A stretch of DNA of 64,000 bases, taken from assembly GCF_000832985.1 (NCBI RefSeq), contig NZ_CP009921.1, positions 124,001-188,000 of the forward strand. Reading direction: 5' to 3'. Origin of the DNA: Priestia megaterium NBRC 15308 = ATCC 14581. Lineage in GTDB: Bacteria; Bacillota; Bacilli; Bacillales; Bacillaceae_H. Of the stretch, positions 9,744-50,467 are shown piece after piece (position 1 is the stretch's first letter; every line of letters begins with the position of its first letter). Made by a program: the position numbers and the translations under genes. The notes below the pieces were generated by a model. It did no database searches, was not told the origin of the DNA, and worked only from the letters and a program-made list of their open reading frames with translations.

Positions 9744-9752
9744 AAAGATGGA

Positions 9753-9786
9753 GAGCCGTATACCTTGAGAGGGGTACGTACGGTTC
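9753..9786 (+). ncRNA. group II intron domain V
   Basis: A 34-base hairpin beginning GAGCCGTA and closing TACGGTTC, with the AGC catalytic triad at its base and a TTGA loop region. Length and sequence fit bacterial domain V. It lies 10 bases after the maturase stop. Confidence 0.9.
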
Positions 9787-9847
9787 GGGGGGGAGTTCTC
9801 GGAAACCTAAGACCGAGAGGTCTTAAGGCGCCGGGTTCTTACCCTAC

Positions 9848-41967: not shown

Positions 41968-42014
41968 GGATTAGAGTGTTTTTACCAGAGCTATTGTGAC
42001 TGCTAAAATAGCAT

Positions 42015-43697
42015 GGCTCTTTCTCACTTTTGGTGAAGGTAAACGTCGCTATATGTCAAAGACATGCATTATTTTTTCAGAAAAACAACTCTACCTATAA
42101 TAATGGTATGAGCACTCGTTTTTTCAACAGCTCATCACTTGCCCGACCATACATCATACGTTTTAACATCTTCACACGATGTATATGTCCTTCAGATAGC
42201 CCATTACTTAAAGGATCAACACAAGCAGCCATTACCCCTTGTAAATCTTTTTCTATATAGGTTATAAAGGTATCGAGAGCTGGAAACGAATACATTTTAC
42301 ATGTTTCAATCCAACCAGGTATGCCTTGATTACTACGTTTACTCACGATGTTTCTAAATTTACGTGTCACTTCAAATAATTGTGGTATTAATGGAAACTC
42401 TTTTAAACATGCCGAAGGTAATGAATCTAACCAGTTTCTATTCTTTTCACTCCATATTTTCCACAGTAGGGAAGCTCTAGACAAAGAATGCGTTGTGGCA
42501 CTGGCTCTATATTCATGACGAATTCTCGAAACGGCTTCATTTAAAGTAGAGCGACATCCTGTATAGCCTATCTTTTTAAGTTCTGCCTCCATACGACTCG
42601 TCGTCCACCCAGATAGGTTCCATTGACGTAATTGATTTAGGAATGGATCTAATAGTCTTACACGACTAATAGGCTCTTTTTTCTTGCGTCTTAAATCTTT
42701 ATAGACTGTATTACGTGAAATATGCATTTGACGCGAAATCCAAGCAATGGATTTCCCTTTTTCTTTCCACTCTTTCACTTCTAAGGCGCGTTGCCAAACT
42801 TGCTCAGCATACTGATGGCGTTGAACATCTGTCTTGCGGATAATAAGTGGTTCTGTTGTAGGATTTTTATATTCTGTTTTTCTCCATATAGATGGAAAAG
42901 ATTGTTGTAAGGTCTCTCGAATTGCTGTAAATAAACCTTTCAGAATATGCCAACGGTCCGTAATCTGATAAGCATGAGGCAGCGCTTGAGAGATAGCCTT
43001 AGCGTATGTGAAAGAACCATCACGAGTCACCGTTTGAATCGTTGGATGCTGTTCGAGCCATTTTACGACTGTTTCTTTATCTCTCCCATTTAAAATAGCG
43101 ATGGGTCTTCGGGTTTCTTGATTGATAATAATCGTACCGTAACGACAACGCTTCTTAAATGCAAAGTCATCAATCCCAATATGAACCGGCGGTTCATAAG
43201 AAGGCAGCTTCAATTTATGAAGCAGGCGTAAAAGCGTATGATGACTGGTTACAATACCTAGATGCTTAGACAGCCGAGATGCTACTTTGCAGCTCGTAGA
43301 TAGTGCGATTGACTTTAACATCTCTTGTAAACGTTTGGTTTTGCGTTGATAGGTCCCTAACCACGTAAATCTTTCTGTAAAAATAGCTTGTGGGCAACTA
43401 CAGTCATCGCAAAAAAACTTACGTGTTTGTATCTTTATATATGTTGTTTTACCATACGCCGGTACATCCTGAAGGGATCGAACATATTGGCTATGAATAC
43501 GGTGAGATAGAGTATGACAAGACGGACATATACAAGAGGAATGTTTAGATTTTACTAGATACATATAAGATTGATCTTCTTGTATAACTCGTAAGCATTC
43601 TATATTAGTGAAAGAAGAAAAAGGCATGTTGAGATTCGCTCCTTTTTATTTCACTATATCATCTATAAAGCACCTTCACCAAAAGTGAGAAAGAGCC
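42015..43697 (-). mobile_element. ISL3-family insertion sequence
   Basis: Perfect 26-bp inverted repeats beginning GGCTCTTTCTCAC bound the element (42015-42040, 43672-43697) around one transposase. Outside them lies another inverted pair GTGACTGCTAAA (41996-42007) / TTTAGCAGTCAC (43705-43716), separated by 7 bases of unmatched sequence, so the true ends may be further out. I see no 8-bp target duplication at either boundary. Confidence 0.88.
42095..43627 (-). CDS. ISL3-family transposase
   Basis: A 510-residue DDE transposase. The N-terminal zinc-binding part has CICPSCHTLSHRIHSQYVR and FFCDDCSCPQ; the DDE core has HIGIDDFAFKKR, the VTRDGS-type second Asp region and a C-terminal Glu region near NGLSEGHIHRVKMLKRMMYG. 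Full length for ISL3. AAAGGAGCG precedes the ATG. Confidence 0.95.
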   Translation of the reverse strand: MPFSSFTNIECLRVIQEDQSYMYLVKSKHSSCICPSCHTLSHRIHSQYVRSLQDVPAYGKTTYIKIQTRKFFCDDCSCPQAIFTERFTWLGTYQRKTKRLQEMLKSIALSTSCKVASRLSKHLGIVTSHHTLLRLLHKLKLPSYEPPVHIGIDDFAFKKRCRYGTIIINQETRRPIAILNGRDKETVVKWLEQHPTIQTVTRDGSFTYAKAISQALPHAYQITDRWHILKGLFTAIRETLQQSFPSIWRKTEYKNPTTEPLIIRKTDVQRHQYAEQVWQRALEVKEWKEKGKSIAWISRQMHISRNTVYKDLRRKKKEPISRVRLLDPFLNQLRQWNLSGWTTSRMEAELKKIGYTGCRSTLNEAVSRIRHEYRASATTHSLSRASLLWKIWSEKNRNWLDSLPSACLKEFPLIPQLFEVTRKFRNIVSKRSNQGIPGWIETCKMYSFPALDTFITYIEKDLQGVMAACVDPLSNGLSEGHIHRVKMLKRMMYGRASDELLKKRVLIPLL

Positions 43698-43750
43698 ACT
43701 TTTATTTAGCAGTCACAAATGTTTAAAAAACGCTTTAATTTAATAAAAAG

Positions 43751-43770
43751 AGGAGCCACTTTTGGCTCCT
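43751..43770 (-). terminator. terminator of the Hsp20 gene
   Basis: AGGAGCCA / TGGCTCCT with a 4-base loop, followed on the minus strand by CTTTTTATT. Confidence 0.75.
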
Positions 43771-43779
43771 TTTACTTTT

Positions 43780-44217
43780 TTAATGAAAGTCCACATCAAT
43801 TTTTTTTGTTTCATCTTTTGCTAATTTAGGCATTCTAACTTCTAGAACTCCATTTTTATAAGATGCTTTTGTCCCTTCGTTAGAGACAGAACTTGGAAGA
43901 TGCACAGAACGATGAAAACGGCCTAAAAAACGTTCTTTTCGATGCATATTTTCCTCTTTGACTTCATTTGTTCGAGTGGTAGATCCACTAATACTTAGTG
44001 TATTGTTTTCCACTGTAACATTGACATCTTCTTTACTTTGCAGCCCTGGAATATCACAAGTAACCACAACTTCATTCTCTGTTTCATGGACATCTACTCG
44101 AATTTCTCCAAAATTTGTTTCTGTCCCCAGAGTGGAAGGGAAATCAGAAAAGAAGCGTTCAAAATCTTTTCTCATATTAGATAGTTGTCTAAATGGATCA
44201 TATGGTACAAGTGCCAT
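43780..44217 (-). CDS. Hsp20/alpha-crystallin small heat shock protein
   Basis: A 145-residue holdase. The alpha-crystallin domain spans about 45-140 (VRVDVHETENEVVVTCDIPG is approximated by IRVDVHETENEVVV; then FHRSVHLPSSV and YKNGVLEVRMPK with the NGVLEV hallmark). The N-terminal ALVPYDPFRQLSNM is typical of Bacillus Hsp20. I chose ATG 44217 because AAGGAGG lies 9 bases upstream; the earlier frame adds nine unlikely residues. Confidence 0.95.
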   Translation of the reverse strand: MALVPYDPFRQLSNMRKDFERFFSDFPSTLGTETNFGEIRVDVHETENEVVVTCDIPGLQSKEDVNVTVENNTLSISGSTTRTNEVKEENMHRKERFLGRFHRSVHLPSSVSNEGTKASYKNGVLEVRMPKLAKDETKKIDVDFH

Positions 44218-44433
44218 TGATACATCCTCCTTCTTTCTTAGCATGAGATTAGTATGGCTCCTGTTTAGAGAAGTTATTCAAGTTCATGTAGGGGTACCGC
44301 CAGCAAAACGCATATTTACAACGTTAAGAAAACTATTGAAAAGTTCAATTTCTCAGCATAAAATTAAGAAATTAGATTTTTTTGTTACTCTATAAACACG
44401 CTCCATTCTTAAATAAGGGCTAATTTCCCCATG

Positions 44434-44475
44434 ATAAAAAAAGCTAATCGAACATTGTCGATTAGCTCTATTTTT
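44434..44475 (-). terminator. terminator downstream of the DoxX gene
   Basis: AGCTAATCGA (44442-44451) / TCGATTAGCT (44458-44467) with runs of A and T on both sides, so it can act in both directions. Confidence 0.75.
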
Positions 44476-44558
44476 TAGTATTGATTCGCTTTTTTAACCA
44501 TTTTGCAACTGTAACTATACGTTTAATTACAACAATAAATATGTCTGTTTCATATTTA

Positions 44559-44912
44559 TTATTCAACTTTCCTTATTCTAATCAAAACAAAGAGACTTAG
44601 GGCAAAGAAGATTAAGGCAGGCATCATTACATTTATACCTTGACCAGCTTTAAAATGTGAAAATACAGCGCCAGCCATCAGTAAAGTAAGTCCCCCAGAA
44701 GCTAATAAAGCAATTCTTGACTTCCAGAAACCAACCAAAAGTCCAATAGCCCCTACAATTTCACAAATACCTACAAAATACATCAATCCTAATGGATAAC
44801 CAAAACCTTCAAATGTGTGAACTTGCATAGGATTTCCTGTAAGTTTCATTGTACCAAAAGCGAAAAAGCCAACTACAAGTAATCCTTGAATAATACGTAA
44901 AACCCATTTCAT
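44559..44912 (-). CDS. DoxX-family membrane protein
   Basis: A 117-residue four-helix protein with the DoxX start (RIIQGLLVVGFFAFGTMKLTG) and the GICEIVGAIGLLVGFWKSR second-helix motif. DoxX proteins are linked to thiol/oxidative stress and often sit beside MarR regulators, as here. It lies 29 bases after the MarR-like gene, so probably one transcript with it and pirin. Confidence 0.88.
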   Translation of the reverse strand: MKWVLRIIQGLLVVGFFAFGTMKLTGNPMQVHTFEGFGYPLGLMYFVGICEIVGAIGLLVGFWKSRIALLASGGLTLLMAGAVFSHFKAGQGINVMMPALIFFALSLFVLIRIRKVE

Positions 44913-44941
44913 TTATCATTTCTCCTCTTAATCTTTGTCTT

Positions 44942-45394
44942 TTATTTTTGTAAACTTTGTGCACCAATTCCTATTTTCTTTAATAAACCTACCAGTTGTT
45001 CTTTCTCTTCATTGCTTACAAATGAAAAATTTTCTGAGATTGTTGTAACGTGCTGGGCAAACATTTCACTAAACAAAACTTCTCCGTTTTCAGTCAAAGT
45101 GACATTAAACGCCCTCTTATCGTTTGGATTTGGTTTTCTTTCTACAAGTCCCTGCTTTTCAAGCTTATTCACGACGTAAGTAATGCTTCCACTTGGAATA
45201 GATAGCGTTTCACTGATTTTTTGAATAGGATGAGCACCTTTGTTATAAAGCAATTCAAGTACCATAAAATTTTCAGGGCTGATACTATAACTTTCTATAT
45301 CCTTCCGAATATTTTCAAATACAGCCTTATTTGCTTTCATCCAGATTCGAAATAGCCTTAAATCTAATTGGCTCTTCTCTTGTTTATAATCCAT
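44942..45394 (-). CDS. MarR-family transcriptional regulator
   Basis: A 150-residue winged-helix regulator. Recognition helix region ISETLSIPSGSITYVVNKLE and wing VERKPNPNDKRAFNVTLTENG are typical of MarR. It probably represses the pirin-marR-doxX group. A palindrome CCTAACATTAGG upstream of pirin (46311-46322) is a candidate operator. It lacks an obvious redox cysteine. Confidence 0.9.
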   Translation of the reverse strand: MDYKQEKSQLDLRLFRIWMKANKAVFENIRKDIESYSISPENFMVLELLYNKGAHPIQKISETLSIPSGSITYVVNKLEKQGLVERKPNPNDKRAFNVTLTENGEVLFSEMFAQHVTTISENFSFVSNEEKEQLVGLLKKIGIGAQSLQK

Positions 45395-45434
45395 GCAATT
45401 TACACCTCTTTGAAGTTGGAATCAAAAACAGAAA

Positions 45435-46196
45435 CTATCTATCTTTTGGATACAATGGATACTCGACTTGAGTTGGAATTTCTATAAACACAATGCGAAG
45501 ACTATCTCCCTTAGGCTTGATTGTAATGGTTTCAGTTTTCTCAGATTGAATAATAATAAAATCTTTTTTATCAAAAGAGAGCTCTTGCTGCACAATCTTG
45601 CCTCCATCACCTCTTATAGCTAGTCCTGCAATGGTTCGATTTGGAGTAAGTGTAAGCTGATAACTTGAGCTATTAGAAATTTCTATATCGTACATAAAGG
45701 CATCTGTTATCAGATTAATTGGCGAATCAGTTCCAAGTATAGTTTTAATGGTTACACCCTCTCCTTGAATGACAGGAAATTCCTCGTTTTTATATTTTGA
45801 ATAGTTTGGTGTACGCTTGATTGCATCATTTAAATATGGTTCAAGCCATATTTGAAACATTTCTGCAGGGCCATCTGATCCTTCAGCATGCCACATGCCT
45901 GACCCTGTTTGCATAAGTTGTACACCTCCAGCGTCAACCTCGCTTTGGTTTCCTAGTGAATCTTTATGAAAACCTTTACCTGACAGGATATAGGTTAAAA
46001 TTTCAAACCCTTGATGAGGGTGTTCGCCAATTCCACCTGCTCCTTTTGCTTGCCCCCATGCCCAGTAGAATAAAGGACCAAGTCGACTGATAACAGATCC
46101 TTCACCAGAAAACCCAATGGGTTTTTGTTCTATAATCTTGCCACCATCAAATTCACCTTTTGCCTGTTCACTTGTATGAATGATTTTGACTTCCAT
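45435..46196 (-). CDS. pirin-family bicupin protein
   Basis: A 253-residue cupin protein. The metal-site segment GEHPHQGFEILTYILSG and the downstream SGMWHAEGS are characteristic of pirin/YhhW-type quercetinases and redox-responsive proteins. GGAGGAACA lies before the ATG. It is first of three genes with a MarR regulator and DoxX, an arrangement suggesting response to phenolic or electrophilic stress. Confidence 0.92.
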   Translation of the reverse strand: MEVKIIHTSEQAKGEFDGGKIIEQKPIGFSGEGSVISRLGPLFYWAWGQAKGAGGIGEHPHQGFEILTYILSGKGFHKDSLGNQSEVDAGGVQLMQTGSGMWHAEGSDGPAEMFQIWLEPYLNDAIKRTPNYSKYKNEEFPVIQGEGVTIKTILGTDSPINLITDAFMYDIEISNSSSYQLTLTPNRTIAGLAIRGDGGKIVQQELSFDKKDFIIIQSEKTETITIKPKGDSLRIVFIEIPTQVEYPLYPKDR

Positions 46197-46310
46197 TATT
46201 GTTCCTCCTATAAGTTAAATGAATGAATTAAAATTGAAACCTAACATTTCAAAAATATTAACAAATATAATGGTATGATTATTAGCTGTTTTTGAAATTA
46301 TCGCATTTAC

Positions 46311-46322
46311 CCTAACATTAGG
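46311..46322. promoter_or_regulatory. candidate MarR operator
   Basis: The palindrome CCTAACATTAGG lies about 115 bases ahead of the pirin start, and a half-site CCTAACATT recurs at about 46240, closer to the gene. Assignment to the adjacent MarR protein is inference. Confidence 0.35.
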
Positions 46323-46633
46323 ATAAATCCGTGTCAACAAAAATATTCCCTATTTTTGATGGAGTGTCTACTGTCAAAAAGCACACCTTTTTATACGGTA
46401 AAAAAACGAATGATAAAACCTCTATTTAATCTAAAAAACAAGCCTTGTTAGACTTATTAAAAATACAAGGCCTTATTGTACGCTTGGTTTACGTCTCTTC
46501 CTAGCTGATAACTCTCAGCATTATTTTTGGAGTTAGAAATAGTTGTTTAATTCAGAAAATAATTATAGGAATACTCATTTCGGCATACTTCGACATCCAT
46601 TATGTAGTAATATTTTATATAAATATACACATT
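46323..46633. other. gap before the riboswitch
   Basis: About 310 AT-rich bases separating the divergent pirin operon and the riboswitch-controlled gene. It should carry the riboswitch transcript promoter (TATTTT near 46610 with a poor -35). No gene seen. Confidence 0.4.
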
Positions 46634-46730
46634 CAGATAAAGGCAAACTAGTTGAAAAGCTAGGACGCAAAGCTACAGGTCTAAAGTCAATTGACTATGA
46701 CAGCTGAGCCTCCTGAAAATCTGGAGGAAT
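46634..46730 (+). promoter_or_regulatory. cyclic-di-GMP-I (GEMM-I) riboswitch
   Basis: Conserved features are in order: AAAGGCAAAC (46639-46648), a P2 hairpin with GAAA tetraloop (46654-46657), the hallmark GACGCAAAGC (46664-46673), ACAGGTCTAA and the closing AGCTGAGCC. The end of the aptamer, CCTCC (46709-46713), can pair with the ribosome site GGAGG (46723-46727). GCC of the same segment can instead pair with GGC (46642-46644) in the aptamer base stem. Ligand binding would thus free the ribosome site: a predicted translational ON switch. Confidence 0.9.
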
Positions 46731-46732
46731 TT

Positions 46733-46867
46733 ATGTTTATGGACAGTAAAAAAGAAGTAATAACGTCACATTTAGACCAAGAATGGATTAGACTTATCCA
46801 AGAGGCTAAGGAAGTAGGGTTATCGGTTAAAGAAGTAAAAGCATTCTTAGATAATAAACAAACCTAG
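46733..46867 (+). CDS. SinI-like anti-repressor under riboswitch control
   Basis: A 44-residue protein, SKKEVITSHLDQEWIRLIQE followed by AKEVGLSVKEVKAFL, matching the SinI domain (in B. subtilis SinI: DQEWVELMVEAKEANISPEE). SinI binds SinR and relieves repression of biofilm matrix operons. No SinR-type HTH gene is in the window, so it would act on a host SinR. GGAGG lies 5 bases before ATG 46733. Confidence 0.85.
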   Translation: MFMDSKKEVITSHLDQEWIRLIQEAKEVGLSVKEVKAFLDNKQT

Positions 46868-46874
46868 TGATAAT

Positions 46875-46911
46875 AAAAAACATTAGATAGGCACGCTATC
46901 TAATGTTTTTT
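46875..46911. terminator. bidirectional terminator between convergent SinI-like genes
   Basis: AAAAAACATTAGATAG / CTATCTAATGTTTTTT with a 5-base loop; serves both the plus-strand gene ending at 46867 and the minus-strand gene ending at 46926. Confidence 0.88.
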
Positions 46912-46925
46912 ATTACCGTGTTATC

Positions 46926-47042
46926 TTAAGATTTTGCTTCTAGAAACTGTTTAAATTCTTCTTTACTCACATTTGAATTCATTGCATCTTTTACTAGTTT
47001 CATCCACTCTTCTGGCAGAACTGCTATAGACTTTTTCATCAT
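46926..47042 (-). CDS. second SinI-like small protein
   Basis: A 37-38-residue protein (ATG doublet 47042/47039, AAGGAGG upstream) containing LPEEWMKLVKDAMNSNVSKE followed by EFKQFLEAK, again the SinI pattern of a W-containing helix, turn and second helix. It lacks a riboswitch and converges with the riboswitch-controlled SinI-like gene. Too short for common gene finders. Confidence 0.72.
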   Translation of the reverse strand: MMKKSIAVLPEEWMKLVKDAMNSNVSKEEFKQFLEAKS

Positions 47043-47250
47043 AGTACCTCCTTACATAAATACTTTTTATCATTTACCGTTTGTTTTAAGCTTAATACTC
47101 TATTTTATAGTGACCATCCACTATATTACAACTAAATAGTTAATCCTCTTTACTTTAATCGACTATAGATAGCTGTTTATGTAGTGAAAAATAAAATTCT
47201 TTCTACTATTCTCCCGTAGACACCGCATTTTTTAGTTTCTGATATTCTTT

Positions 47251-47796
47251 TCACCGGCGATAAAAAGTAGCTTCACTTATATTTGTGATTTTACAGATTT
47301 CCTTTACAGGCTTATTAGTGGTTTCATGTAGTTCGATAGCATGCCTTACTCCATCATGCTTTAACGTAAATTTCTGTTTCTTTCCTTTATATATACCTTT
47401 TCTTTTTGCAATGGCAATTCCAGCTTGTTGCTTTTCTTTAATCATTGTCCGATCAAGCTCACTAAATGCTGACATAACTGTTAAGATGAATTTTCCTGAA
47501 GGTGTTCGTGTATCGATACCTAAATTTAAAATCACTAAATGAATACCTCGTGCCTCTAATTCTTCAATAAGTTCCAATAATTGTTTCGTATTTCTTCCTA
47601 GACGATCCATTCTTGTCACCATCAACGTGTCACCTTTTACTAATTGATCAAGCAATTGTGTTAATTCTTCTTTTTGATGGTGAATACCAGATACTTTTTC
47701 TTGTACAATTCGATCGACGTTTGCCTCTCTCAATTGTTCAATCTGCGAATCTAAAAGTTGATCAAAGGCTGAAACACGTGCATACCCAAAAATCAT
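47251..47796 (-). CDS. serine recombinase (resolvase/invertase)
   Basis: A 181-residue small serine recombinase. Catalytic Ser in IFGYARVSAFDQ, RMDRLGRNTKQLLELIEELE, and a C-terminal helix-turn-helix (VKEICKITNISEATFYRR). Could resolve plasmid multimers or invert a segment. ATG 47796 follows GAGGAGG; the frame opens 7 codons earlier. No adjacent transposase, so its partner site is unknown. Confidence 0.92.
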   Translation of the reverse strand: MIFGYARVSAFDQLLDSQIEQLREANVDRIVQEKVSGIHHQKEELTQLLDQLVKGDTLMVTRMDRLGRNTKQLLELIEELEARGIHLVILNLGIDTRTPSGKFILTVMSAFSELDRTMIKEKQQAGIAIAKRKGIYKGKKQKFTLKHDGVRHAIELHETTNKPVKEICKITNISEATFYRR

Positions 47797-47817
47797 AAAA
47801 AACCTCCTCAAAATCAA

Positions 47818-48000
47818 TAATTAAAAGACAAGTCTATATGATAGTTAAATTATACAGTAAAATCAACCCTCTCCTCAACTATCATTTAGGCATACTCTAT
47901 TGATTGATTAATTAATAACTAATTATCTCTTTATATTGAGGAATATTCGTATTAACACAAAATTATTGATGTTCCCGAGTACAATAAAATAAATGACTTC
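47818..48000. other. AT-rich intergenic segment
   Basis: Upstream region of the serine recombinase; candidate location of its res-type sites, though no clear repeats are visible here. Confidence 0.35.
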
Positions 48001-48115
48001 AAGTTTTACTTTAAAGCGTTAAATTGTTACCATGTTATTAGACAATCTTTTCTTATTGTTATTCCTTAGCCAAAAAAGCACAAACCATATATAGTGGTTT
48101 GTGCTTTTTTAACTT
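48001..48115 (-). repeat. dispersed repeat R1, inverted relative to 62315-62425
   Basis: The reverse complement contains GCACAAACCACTATATATGG, TTTGTGCTTTTTTGGCTAAG and ACAATTTAACGCTTTAAAGT, matching in order the segment at 62329-62425. It includes a hairpin terminator GCACAAACCA/TGGTTTGTGC (48076-48108). Confidence 0.7.
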
Positions 48116-48180
48116 TATAGGCCATTTTATAAACTTTATATTTAAATTCGTTGTCCATCTAATTTATTCGTATGCAAAAA

Positions 48181-48257
48181 AGAACCCTTAAAGTAGAACG
48201 GGGACTGACCGGTTCTACTAAGGATTCTTTTTCCGGAGTATGCAGCTTTTTATACAT
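48181..48257 (+). repeat. dispersed repeat R2, hairpin plus conserved tail, copy 1
   Basis: An imperfect hairpin (AGAACCCTTA, AGTAGAAC / GTTCTACT, AAGGATTCT) followed by CTTTTTCCGGAGTATGC and AGCTTTTTATACAT. The 31-base tail (48227-48257) is identical at 51725-51755, while the hairpin arms differ but keep pairing. Confidence 0.65.
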
Positions 48258-48420
48258 CTTTATTATGCTAACGGCTTCTTCATAGGTGTATGAAAGATCC
48301 ATGTATAAGAAGGGCACCATTTATCATATGTTTGTATGGTGAAAAATAGTCTTTACGAGTAAAACATGTTACGATTTACTTGCGGTTATATTTTGGTACT
48401 TTATAATTGTCAATCCTGAT

Positions 48421-48466
48421 AAAAACTACCTCGCTTGTTGGAGCATTCTGTATCGAGGTAGTTTTT
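48421..48466. terminator. hairpin terminator
   Basis: AAAAACTACCTCG / CGAGGTAGTTTTT around a 20-base loop, 15 bases past the stop of the minus-strand small gene. Confidence 0.75.
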
Positions 48467-48481
48467 ATTGTATTATCCATT

Positions 48482-48601
48482 TCAATTATCTCTATATTTT
48501 TTAGTCTTCAAGATGTTCGTAGTGGCCCAACTTATAACTCCACCTACTAGCACGCCTCCACTAAGAGCTAAAAGATGATAGATATAGTCCCCAAAATACA
48601 T
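48482..48601 (-). CDS. 39-residue small membrane protein
   Basis: ATG 48601 with GTAGAGGTGAAG upstream; the peptide has one glycine-rich membrane helix (LLALSGGVLVGGVISWA) and a basic tail (LKTKKYRDN). Ends just before a strong terminator, forming a complete small transcription unit. A holin-, toxin- or regulator-like role is possible but not shown. Confidence 0.5.
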   Translation of the reverse strand: MYFGDYIYHLLALSGGVLVGGVISWATTNILKTKKYRDN

Positions 48602-48774
48602 ACAAACTTCACCTCTACATTTTCAGTGAACTTAATTATATCTATCCTACTACTTTTTCAGTGAAATAATTGTAGTAATTTGGATAACAACGAATAGTTA
48701 GTCATTTTTTCCTAAGGGTATATATAAAATATATTGTATTGTTATAAACTGCTTGTGAGAAAAGAGGGCTGTTT

Positions 48775-48948
48775 ATGCTAGATAAATATGAAGTGCTATT
48801 ATTTACGAGGGATCTTTCAAATTTAACTAAAGATTATCCTACCTGTACAGATCCTTTAACGAAAGAAAGAATGTATCAGCAAATAGAACTGCTACGTGAG
48901 GTTCTTCGCTTACACGATCATAGTGAATTCAAATCATCTTTACAGTGA
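48775..48948 (+). CDS. 57-residue hypothetical protein
   Basis: ATG 48775 preceded by AGAGGGC. Soluble, helical C-terminal half (LTKERMYQQIELLREVLRL). Followed by a bidirectional terminator. Not recognised. Confidence 0.5.
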   Translation: MLDKYEVLLFTRDLSNLTKDYPTCTDPLTKERMYQQIELLREVLRLHDHSEFKSSLQ

Positions 48949-49002
48949 TTTTTTATTTAATAAAAGGTGCCTGCCAACTAGCACTCTTTACTAGTTTAGT
49001 CT

Positions 49003-49035
49003 AAAAGACCCTCTAATAAGGTAGAGGGTCTTTTT
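49003..49035. terminator. bidirectional terminator
   Basis: AAAAGACCCTCTA / TAGAGGGTCTTTTT, between convergent genes ending at 48948 and 49066. Confidence 0.85.
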
Positions 49036-49065
49036 AATCATCAATAGTTGTATCCATAAGATGTA

Positions 49066-49425
49066 TTACTGTTCTTTAAGATAAGTAAAATAATCTTCTA
49101 AAGCTTGCAATGAAAGGGATTCTTTGTAATCGAACTTGTTATCTTCATCTGCTATTTCATAATGAGACCAAGGAATGGCTTGATATACTTCATTTATGAA
49201 ATCTTTAGATCCTGCTAGTACAATCTTAGCTGTACCAGGCTGGGTAACAGCGAGATAAGCTAGGCCACTTTTTTGACTAAGAGTTTGGAAAACTGTGTAT
49301 CTTTCTTCAGTTGCTAAGTCAGCCAACTTAGCAGGATAGTAGACAACATCATTACACGGCGTAGGTAAAGCAACAAATTCTTTTGCGAGCGTAGATTGAG
49401 TTACATCTTTTGTTATGATTTTCAT
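49066..49425 (-). CDS. hypothetical protein
   Basis: A 119-residue soluble alpha/beta protein (MKIITKDVTQSTLAKEF, LAYLAVTQPGTAKIVLAG, a helical C-terminus LQALEDYFTYLKEQ). GAAGAGGTG immediately precedes the ATG. No family recognised. Confidence 0.6.
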   Translation of the reverse strand: MKIITKDVTQSTLAKEFVALPTPCNDVVYYPAKLADLATEERYTVFQTLSQKSGLAYLAVTQPGTAKIVLAGSKDFINEVYQAIPWSHYEIADEDNKFDYKESLSLQALEDYFTYLKEQ

Positions 49426-49608
49426 CACCTCTTCTATATTAGATTTAGCTTATGATTCTTTATACTATCATCTATTTAGTATTTGTAAAAATAGTATAGA
49501 TACCATTCAATGCAATTATTACTCGTATAGTAGTGACTTCTACAGCCCCAGGCACCCGTCACAAAAACAATCATGTTTGTGATATTACATGGTAAAAACT
49601 TATTTAAC

Positions 49609-49645
49609 AAGAAGAGCCTTTACCATCAAGGTGAAGGCTCTTCTT
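49609..49645 (-). terminator. terminator of the secreted-protein gene
   Basis: AAGAAGAGCCTTTACC / GGTGAAGGCTCTTCTT, one G-T pair, 5-base loop; about 50 bases beyond the stop at 49694. Confidence 0.8.
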
Positions 49646-49693
49646 ATTATTTGCTCTAATAGATTCTTTTACTATCTTCATCTTTATATTAAA

Positions 49694-50167
49694 TTAAGGT
49701 CTATGAAAATTGACGGTTTTCTCGTCATCTCCTGTGCGTTCAAACCATCCTCTAAAGGCCCAGTTATCATAGCCTCCATCACCTTCATTAATAAATGTTC
49801 CTTCTTCAAATATCCAGACTCCATACGTAATACCATCGTAATCTACGGTATCAAAGTATTGTACACCTTGTAATTGATCTGAATTATAACCTTGACTCAA
49901 ATTCATCACCATTACATTATATTGCTGACCCGATTCAAAGAATGCTTTTTCCATCGCTCCCTTGACGAATCCACTTCGGTTATCAGCTGATTTTTTTGCG
50001 TCATCAATAGCCTGTCCAATCGCTACAGGATCAACGGTGACTTCTCCTCCAACCTCTGCTGCTTGTGCAGAACCAGTATCATCTCCTAAAGACGGTAGAG
50101 TTAGGGGTGTCGCTAACACAGCTAACCCTAATGCAGAAGCCACAGCAGCTTGTTTCGCTTTTTTCAT
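49694..50167 (-). CDS. secreted small protein, unknown function
   Basis: A 157-residue protein with a clear signal peptide (KKAKQAAVASALGLAVLATP, cleavage likely after AQAA near residue 36). The mature part contains NVMVMNLSQGYNSDQL, FDTVDYDGITYGVWIFEEG and GDGGYDNWAFRGWFER, an aromatic-rich compact domain without cysteines. It resembles small secreted Bacillus proteins I cannot name with confidence. GGAGATAGA precedes the ATG. Confidence 0.7.
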   Translation of the reverse strand: MKKAKQAAVASALGLAVLATPLTLPSLGDDTGSAQAAEVGGEVTVDPVAIGQAIDDAKKSADNRSGFVKGAMEKAFFESGQQYNVMVMNLSQGYNSDQLQGVQYFDTVDYDGITYGVWIFEEGTFINEGDGGYDNWAFRGWFERTGDDEKTVNFHRP

Positions 50168-50224
50168 TCTATCTCCGCCTCATTTTTAGATGATCATTAG
50201 AAAATTTACTCTATTCATCCAATG

Positions 50225-50467
50225 TTAAACAAAAATAAGGAAATGATAAGATAGTTTAATTTCATTTATTGTACAATATTGATTTTTCCCACATTCAATA
50301 AGGCTATGTGAATTCGTTACCTGAGATGTTTTATCGAAAATCTCCAATATAACATTTAACTTTTCATCATCAGACAAATTCATAAATTTCTTATTTACTG
50401 TGCCATTAATGTCGTAGCTATATAATTTAACACCATTTATGGAGACAGAAAAATAATAAATTCCTAA
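50225..50467 (-). pseudogene. gene remnant without start codon
   Basis: About 80 codons stay open on the minus strand with coding-like composition (SVSINGVKLYSYDINGTVNK, NLSDDEKLNVILEIFDKTSQ, ending HFLIFV and stop), but the frame begins right after a stop and has no start. The 5' part is missing, and the MITE-like palindrome lies just upstream, so insertion or deletion there may have truncated it. Confidence 0.35.

Follow-up and report, generated by a model that had tools for sequence, protein, structure and literature searches.

SinR and SinI form the model biofilm decision of Bacillus, in which SinI inactivates SinR, a biofilm repressor. In many other bacteria, the general messenger for biofilm formation is c-di-GMP. 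To our knowledge, the two have seldom been joined. The locus studied here raises the question of whether they are joined directly, as a preliminary description had placed a c-di-GMP riboswitch in front of one SinI-like gene and a second SinI-like gene opposite it. The window, i.e. the whole 64,000-nucleotide stretch that was analysed, covers positions 124001-188000 of a 301,264-bp contig in a Priestia megaterium genome of 7 contigs. The cassette sits on accessory (plasmid) DNA, and positions 45500-48000 of the window matched the 301,273-bp P. megaterium plasmid NZ_CP035095.1 at 100%. The observation proved to be real and larger than first noted.

The aptamer and the two facing genes

The features of the cassette and its surroundings are as follows (window coordinates).

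43672-50250, no strand: 6.6-kb segment with the cassette; a 100% identical copy lies on the same plasmid (C7:23930-30505)
46579-46585 (TTCGGCA) and 46589-46595 (TTCGACA), plus strand: two Spo0A-box-like sites 3 nt apart upstream of the aptamer
46632-46716, plus strand: c-di-GMP-I (GEMM-I) riboswitch aptamer (RF01051, 80.6 bits against a cut-off of 35, E 3e-14, model positions 1-87 of 87)
46632-46636, plus strand: P1 5' strand UUCAG, pairing with 46713-46717
46709-46713, plus strand: anti-Shine-Dalgarno CCUCC, paired to GGAGG in the minimum-energy fold
46713-46717, plus strand: P1 3' strand CUGAA, pairing with 46632-46636
46723-46727, plus strand: Shine-Dalgarno GGAGG of gene 1, with predicted accessibility of 0.05 unconstrained and 0.78 with P1 imposed
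46733-46867, plus strand: gene 1, ATG to stop, predicted SinI-type anti-repressor of 44 aa (Pfam SinI 47.6 bits, cut-off 31.4)
46871-46915, no strand: inverted repeat, probable two-way terminator (self-match in inverse orientation, 89%)
46926-47042, minus strand: gene 2, predicted free-standing SinR C-terminal tail of 38 aa (Pfam SinI 47.9 bits; SinR-tail model 45.2 bits versus SinI model 21.8)

The covariance-model search recovered the GEMM-I aptamer of the preliminary description over its full length, with a gap of 16 nt to the start of gene 1. GCC, which had been put forward as the base stem, was rejected; P1 lies one step further out and consists of UUCAG/CUGAA. P1 pairings differ among relatives (UCAG/CUGA, CCAG/CUGG, CUAG/CUAG, AUUG/CAAU), and the plasmid copy L161 has a P1 of 8 bp, AUAUUAAG/CUUAAUAU. 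When P1 was sought freely as the longest helix, other pairings came out in many loci, and a fixed inner 3' position was used instead. In this fixed register (n=69), pair 1 was found 52 times (51.4 expected), pair 3 54 times (49.4 expected) and pair 5 23 times (29.8 expected); these counts are not clearly above independence, so the covariation is modest. At the place of P1, several other c-di-GMP-I aptamers (alignment A4) have UUCG/CGAA. The window sequence AAAGGCAAAC has G at the presumed ligand-selecting position, at which cGAMP-type variants differ. A chromosome-type aptamer of another Priestia genome (L020:1501-1575, 51 bits) has its P2 stem partly missing.

The listing of open reading frames starts gene 1 at an upstream TTG, giving 58 aa; the frame from the ATG corresponds to the 44-residue SinI-like frame first described. 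Subfamily models were made from 80 sinR loci, using 77 segments of SinI and 93 of the SinR tail. Gene 1 scored 57.5 bits as SinI versus 31.4 as a SinR tail; like 11 plasmid relatives, it fell on the SinI side, with margins of 4 to 34 bits. The smallest margin was that of L164, a relative in which the second half of SinI is replaced. Among solved structures in the PDB, SinI came first (E 1.6e-4, 2.1e-4) and SinR next (2.1e-3). The frame has a SinI domain and no DNA-binding domain, MerR matches being below the cut-off. By these sequence comparisons, gene 1 is a SinI-type anti-repressor, closer to SinI than to SinR tails.

Gene 2 is convergent with gene 1, as had been noted. SinR tails, too, are matched by the Pfam SinI model, so the earlier label "SinI-like" is valid at the family level, but gene 2 lies closer to SinR. 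All 12 gene-2 sequences scored higher with the SinR-tail model, gene 2 and its 11 relatives by 14 to 30 bits. Compared with solved structures, SinR(74-111) ranked first (E 2e-6) and SinI had an E of 0.025. When 10 genomes of the genus were searched with a gene-2 alignment, its own kind was followed by frames of 109-118 aa, which are SinR-sized (40.7-44.6 bits), and then by one SinI-sized frame (26.9 bits). On the subfamily models, the PDB ranking and the genus-genome search, a second SinI was rejected, and the 38-aa frame gave no HTH match. By these three comparisons, gene 2 is classified as a free-standing SinR C-terminal tail without the DNA-binding domain; as a headless tail it need not act like gene 1. 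In gene 2, all nine residues that PMC3163267 gives for the SinR core (W, L, V, A, M, V, F, F and L) are present by eye, and its C-terminus lies 4 residues past the last of them. The window copy is 10 residues shorter at its end than a 47-residue copy on contig C5. PMC3163267 assigns dimer and tetramer determinants to SinR(74-111), with tetramer contacts at the chain ends, and describes this fragment as SinI-binding and tetrameric; by analogy, a free copy should bind SinI, SinR or both.

The two genes had been said to share a terminator. The inverted repeat does lie between them, but it was not listed in a terminator scan of 46350-47250, and its reading as a terminator comes from the sequence alone. 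Both genes look constrained over nine plasmid comparisons and 29 codons (pN/pS 0.16-0.46 for gene 1, 0.18-0.35 for gene 2), with synonymous changes near saturation in several plasmid pairs. SinR-tail genes were also found beside no aptamer, at G000:C7:271622-271765, G000:C6:3925122-3925262 and L165:1551-1700.

Five c-di-GMP-I aptamers were found in the genome: this plasmid has two, a 74.8-kb contig has one and a 5.3-Mb contig the other two. sinI lies directly behind four of the five, and the cassette is present in three plasmid copies. Copies of one transposase-like element (window 41994-43698) lie next to both 6.6-kb segments, and further near-identical copies occur in the genome. The fifth aptamer (L004; L074:4620-8509) is chromosomal and has a heparinase-like gene upstream, a family 2 glycosyltransferase gene downstream and GGDEF-EAL genes close by. 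Elsewhere in the window, 9751-9847 matched a group II intron (RF00029, 59.7 bits).

Distribution of the aptamer-sinI link

An alignment of four SinR proteins was used to collect named sinR loci, and the best 80 of a longer list were taken; an aptamer stood before sinI in 58 of these 80, a sample that is enriched because two of the four query SinRs are riboswitch-linked. A covariance model from 24 aptamers was used on the sinR loci. Across 83 sinR-locus sources there were 61 aptamer matches, each directly before a SinI domain (L069/L091 and L070/L075 are the same places). Two layouts occurred, aptamer-sinI-sinR and a sinR that faces aptamer-sinI; the genera with sampled loci include Metabacillus, Sutcliffiella, Fredinandcohnia, Peribacillus, Oceanobacillus, Mesobacillus, Cytobacillus and Evansella. 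Tandem aptamer-sinI units were seen at one sinR locus (L117:1445-1543 and 2149-2244), and two units were likewise present in each of the genomes G026 and G028.

A separate, even draw comprised 37 genomes of the host's order, this genome (G000) included. PF08671 was matched (E ≤ 0.01) in 23 of the 37 and above the cut-off in 22, counts in which SinR tails are included. At least 18 of the 23 genomes with a match had an aptamer 42-75 nt before the PF08671 domain on the same strand; G010, G015, G027, G032 and G036 had the domain and no link among the aptamers listed. Among the 150 aptamers listed, at least 23 had this placement before a PF08671 domain, four of them in G000. Other orientations within the same 42-75-nt distance were found five times among the aptamers listed; the domain belonged to gene 2 in its three copies, to a sinR and to a sinR-like tail. 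No c-di-GMP-I match was obtained in 14 control genomes, B. subtilis among them.

Within the genus Priestia, all 10 genomes had an aptamer and 7 had sinI directly after one (not G005, G006 and G008). Twelve other Priestia plasmid loci were scanned, and the aptamer was present in 10; L155 and L165 were without it. L155 (1270-1400) has kept both genes and a TTCGACA site, with no recognisable aptamer. What we observed directly is the aptamer, the two genes with the subfamily of each, and the repeated occurrence of the aptamer-sinI link in other genomes. The link had been described as carried on accessory DNA, which holds for the plasmid contig, but it is not special to such DNA, as it is also chromosomal, in this strain included.

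Predicted switching direction and upstream inputs

Accessibility of the ribosome site was computed with and without P1, imposing P1 as a stand-in for the ligand. In the window, the predicted pairing of CCUCC with GGAGG agrees with the masking proposed from the letters CCTCC. The leader fold itself is only somewhat more stable than those of shuffled sequences (z -1.57; 16 of 200 shuffles equally good). The rise in accessibility on imposing P1 is likewise in line with the ON direction at translation that had been predicted. A transcriptional switch through a terminator between the aptamer and gene 1 was rejected: the scan of 46350-47250 gave one terminator site, 46504-46519, upstream of the aptamer.

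For relatives, 69 aptamer-sinI instances were available, from which 5 without a 3-bp P1 were left out. The set includes near-duplicates (L069/L091 and L070/L075 are the same places; L001 and the window are near-identical). Of the two units of L117 it contains one, and many of its loci are related. Imposing P1 raised the predicted accessibility by more than 0.1 in 57 of the 64 and lowered it by more than 0.1 in none. The mean rose from 0.34 to 0.73, and part of this effect is generic, because the shuffled-linker control rose too (0.49 to 0.71). Two masking designs were apparent. In design A, a hairpin is formed from the P1 3' strand, typically CCUGRAAUAC/GUAUUUURGG; a masking helix of at least 8 bp taking in the ribosome site was found in 42 of 79 units, with a mean of 7.3 versus 4.2 in the control. 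In design B, the P1 5' strand pairs with the ribosome site over at least 6 bp (27 of 79; mean 4.2 versus 3.9, hardly above the control). As both designs compete with P1, they point to an ON switch at translation. The masking helix of the window is 5 bp, no longer than the control (5.8, in a control that kept both arms).

The 13 Priestia plasmid-type copies gave mixed predictions, and in 8 of them just 1-2 bp of P1 could be imposed. Accessibility rose by more than 0.1 in seven (the window, L001, L006, L014, L161, L162 and L164) and by less than 0.1 in L160 and L163; it fell in four, L156 (0.45 to 0.39), L157 (0.42 to 0.38) and L158 and L159 (both 0.44 to 0.24, with 1 bp of P1 imposed). The plasmid-type copies are thus mixed as to the predicted ON direction, with 7 clear, 2 weak and 4 not following it. 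Overall, the leader folding favours a translational ON switch.

The two sites upstream of the aptamer resemble the Spo0A box (TTCGNCA/TGNCGAA). This box was present in 30 of 79 aptamer-sinI upstream regions, versus 2.2 expected from shuffles, and in 15 of 19 Priestia units. It was also present before 6 of 37 other aptamers, some of which may themselves precede a sinI, versus 1.0 expected, and the enrichment is not exclusive to aptamer-sinI units. A promoter scan of 46350-47250 gave nothing convincing before the aptamer (6 found versus 3.7 expected). The Spo0A-box-like sites suggest a double gate of Spo0A and c-di-GMP. For B. subtilis, PMC3163267 places the transcription of sinI under the control of Spo0A.

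The host genome has 9 GGDEF and 7 EAL matches. On the chromosome of this strain, a row of sinR-like gene, aptamer and sinI is divergent from polysaccharide genes (acyltransferase, chain-length determinant, ATPase, sugar transferase, epimerase and polysaccharide exporter). The 313-bp gap of this unit has two GTTCTTT boxes, a pattern that occurs 45 times in the 64-kb window; beside the plasmid cassette, no SinR box (GTTCTYT) was found from 44998 to 48179. In L005, L013 and L016, the aptamer is immediately preceded by a sinR-like frame, and the pattern gave none in L011 and L020. The gene order of the chromosomal unit is consistent with a path from c-di-GMP to SinI, to a SinR protein and to exopolysaccharide. 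The chromosomal unit (L005:1358-1587) has A at a nearly invariant C of the aptamer, and its SinI has R for a W kept by the aligned relatives; both positions are unchanged in the window copy. In the same strain, the classical sinI-sinR operon (L071) lacks an aptamer, so that part of the host SinI would escape c-di-GMP control. This operon and the mixed plasmid copies slightly lower our confidence in the ON reading.

Genes of the Spo0E family were found near the plasmid gene pair in L006 and L159, together with Sda in L006, and EAL-domain genes in L157 and L160. Priestia plasmids may therefore hold several small sporulation and biofilm regulators.

Proposed regulation and known systems

Taking these parts together, we consider it probable that the plasmid c-di-GMP-I riboswitch is a translational ON switch for a SinI-type anti-repressor, with Spo0A input and gene 2 as a decoy. 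Without ligand, CCUCC would pair with the ribosome site GGAGG and gene 1 would be masked. With c-di-GMP bound, P1 (UUCAG/CUGAA) would form, the masking hairpin would be broken and SinI would be made; SinI would then bind a SinR protein, and matrix genes would be derepressed. Spo0A would probably raise transcription of the leader, so that SinI output would need both Spo0A and c-di-GMP. The headless SinR tail encoded by gene 2 would most likely be a decoy for SinI (or a SinR partner unable to bind DNA) and would set a threshold. In this explanation we infer the ligand response, the direction, the protein binding, the Spo0A control and the role of gene 2.

An OFF switch, in which the ligand leads to masking of the ribosome site, for example by the P1 5' strand and AUCUGGA, is unlikely. 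UUCAGAU of the window can pair with AUCUGGA across the ribosome site over 7 bp, but this pairing uses the 5' strand of P1 and therefore competes with the bound form. Imposing P1 gave no rise in L156 and L157 and a fall of 0.20 in L158/L159; the latter, however, had 1 bp of P1 to impose, and the set with a P1 of at least 3 bp predicts ON in 57 of 64 and OFF in none. It is also improbable that the cassette on the plasmid is a relic in decay that no longer functions. The aptamer of L155 is lost, the second half of SinI is replaced in L164 and gene 2 of the window stops 10 residues short of the contig C5 copy, but the aptamer is kept in 10 of 12 other plasmid loci, both genes look constrained and the genome has three plasmid copies.

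For the decoy step only, it is possible, if somewhat doubtful, that gene 2 is itself an anti-repressor, which pairs with SinR via the hook and breaks the SinR tetramer. In this version, still in the doubtful range, both genes would push the same way, one dependent on c-di-GMP and one not. Gene 2 lacks the DNA-binding head, would also lack the C-terminal tetramer contacts and keeps the core residues of a segment said to have the dimer and tetramer determinants; as the same segment is called SinI-binding in PMC3163267, titration of SinI is at least as likely, and we retain the decoy as the preferred reading.

An aptamer before sinI in at least 18 of 23 sampled genomes with a SinI-domain match would wire c-di-GMP directly to SinR-SinI, and with such a wire a single mutation would be enough to test what c-di-GMP does in these bacteria. 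For this circuit, a SinR tail that stands alone and is carried by plasmids would be a player of a new kind. We tentatively extend the reading, as a possibility we do not yet favour as a whole, to c-di-GMP switching on SinI translation in most SinI-bearing lineages of the order, with B. subtilis as the exception, and to Priestia plasmids pairing this switch with an opposing headless SinR, resetting the matrix decision of the host by c-di-GMP and Spo0A.

The preliminary description knew of no such case, yet a putative "(c-di-GMP)-sinI" was listed for Bacillus methanolicus MGA3 in 2015 (PMC4342826). As here, it is a putative c-di-GMP riboswitch directly before sinI; it is given there in one sentence and one table line, and these contain no mechanism, survey or facing SinR-tail gene. 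In the open-access literature searched, no further report of a riboswitch before sinI was found. The cbpA riboswitch of the Bacillus cereus group belongs to the same RNA family and is described as ON in PMC7423583; however, it is said there to switch on transcription, and its target is a collagen-binding surface protein rather than a regulator. In B. thuringiensis, sinI rises on overexpression of a c-di-GMP-making enzyme, according to unpublished array data mentioned in PMC7793685. The sinI-sinR pair of B. subtilis shares the SinI-type anti-repressor, its sinI being under Spo0A control as PMC3163267 outlines it, but the B. subtilis genome has no c-di-GMP-I match, whereas the plasmid cassette has a riboswitch before sinI and a facing headless SinR. 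The parts of the cassette are thus of known kinds; as far as our searches of the open-access literature show, what is new is how widely the link occurs, the switching design that most copies are predicted to share and the headless SinR opposite sinI.
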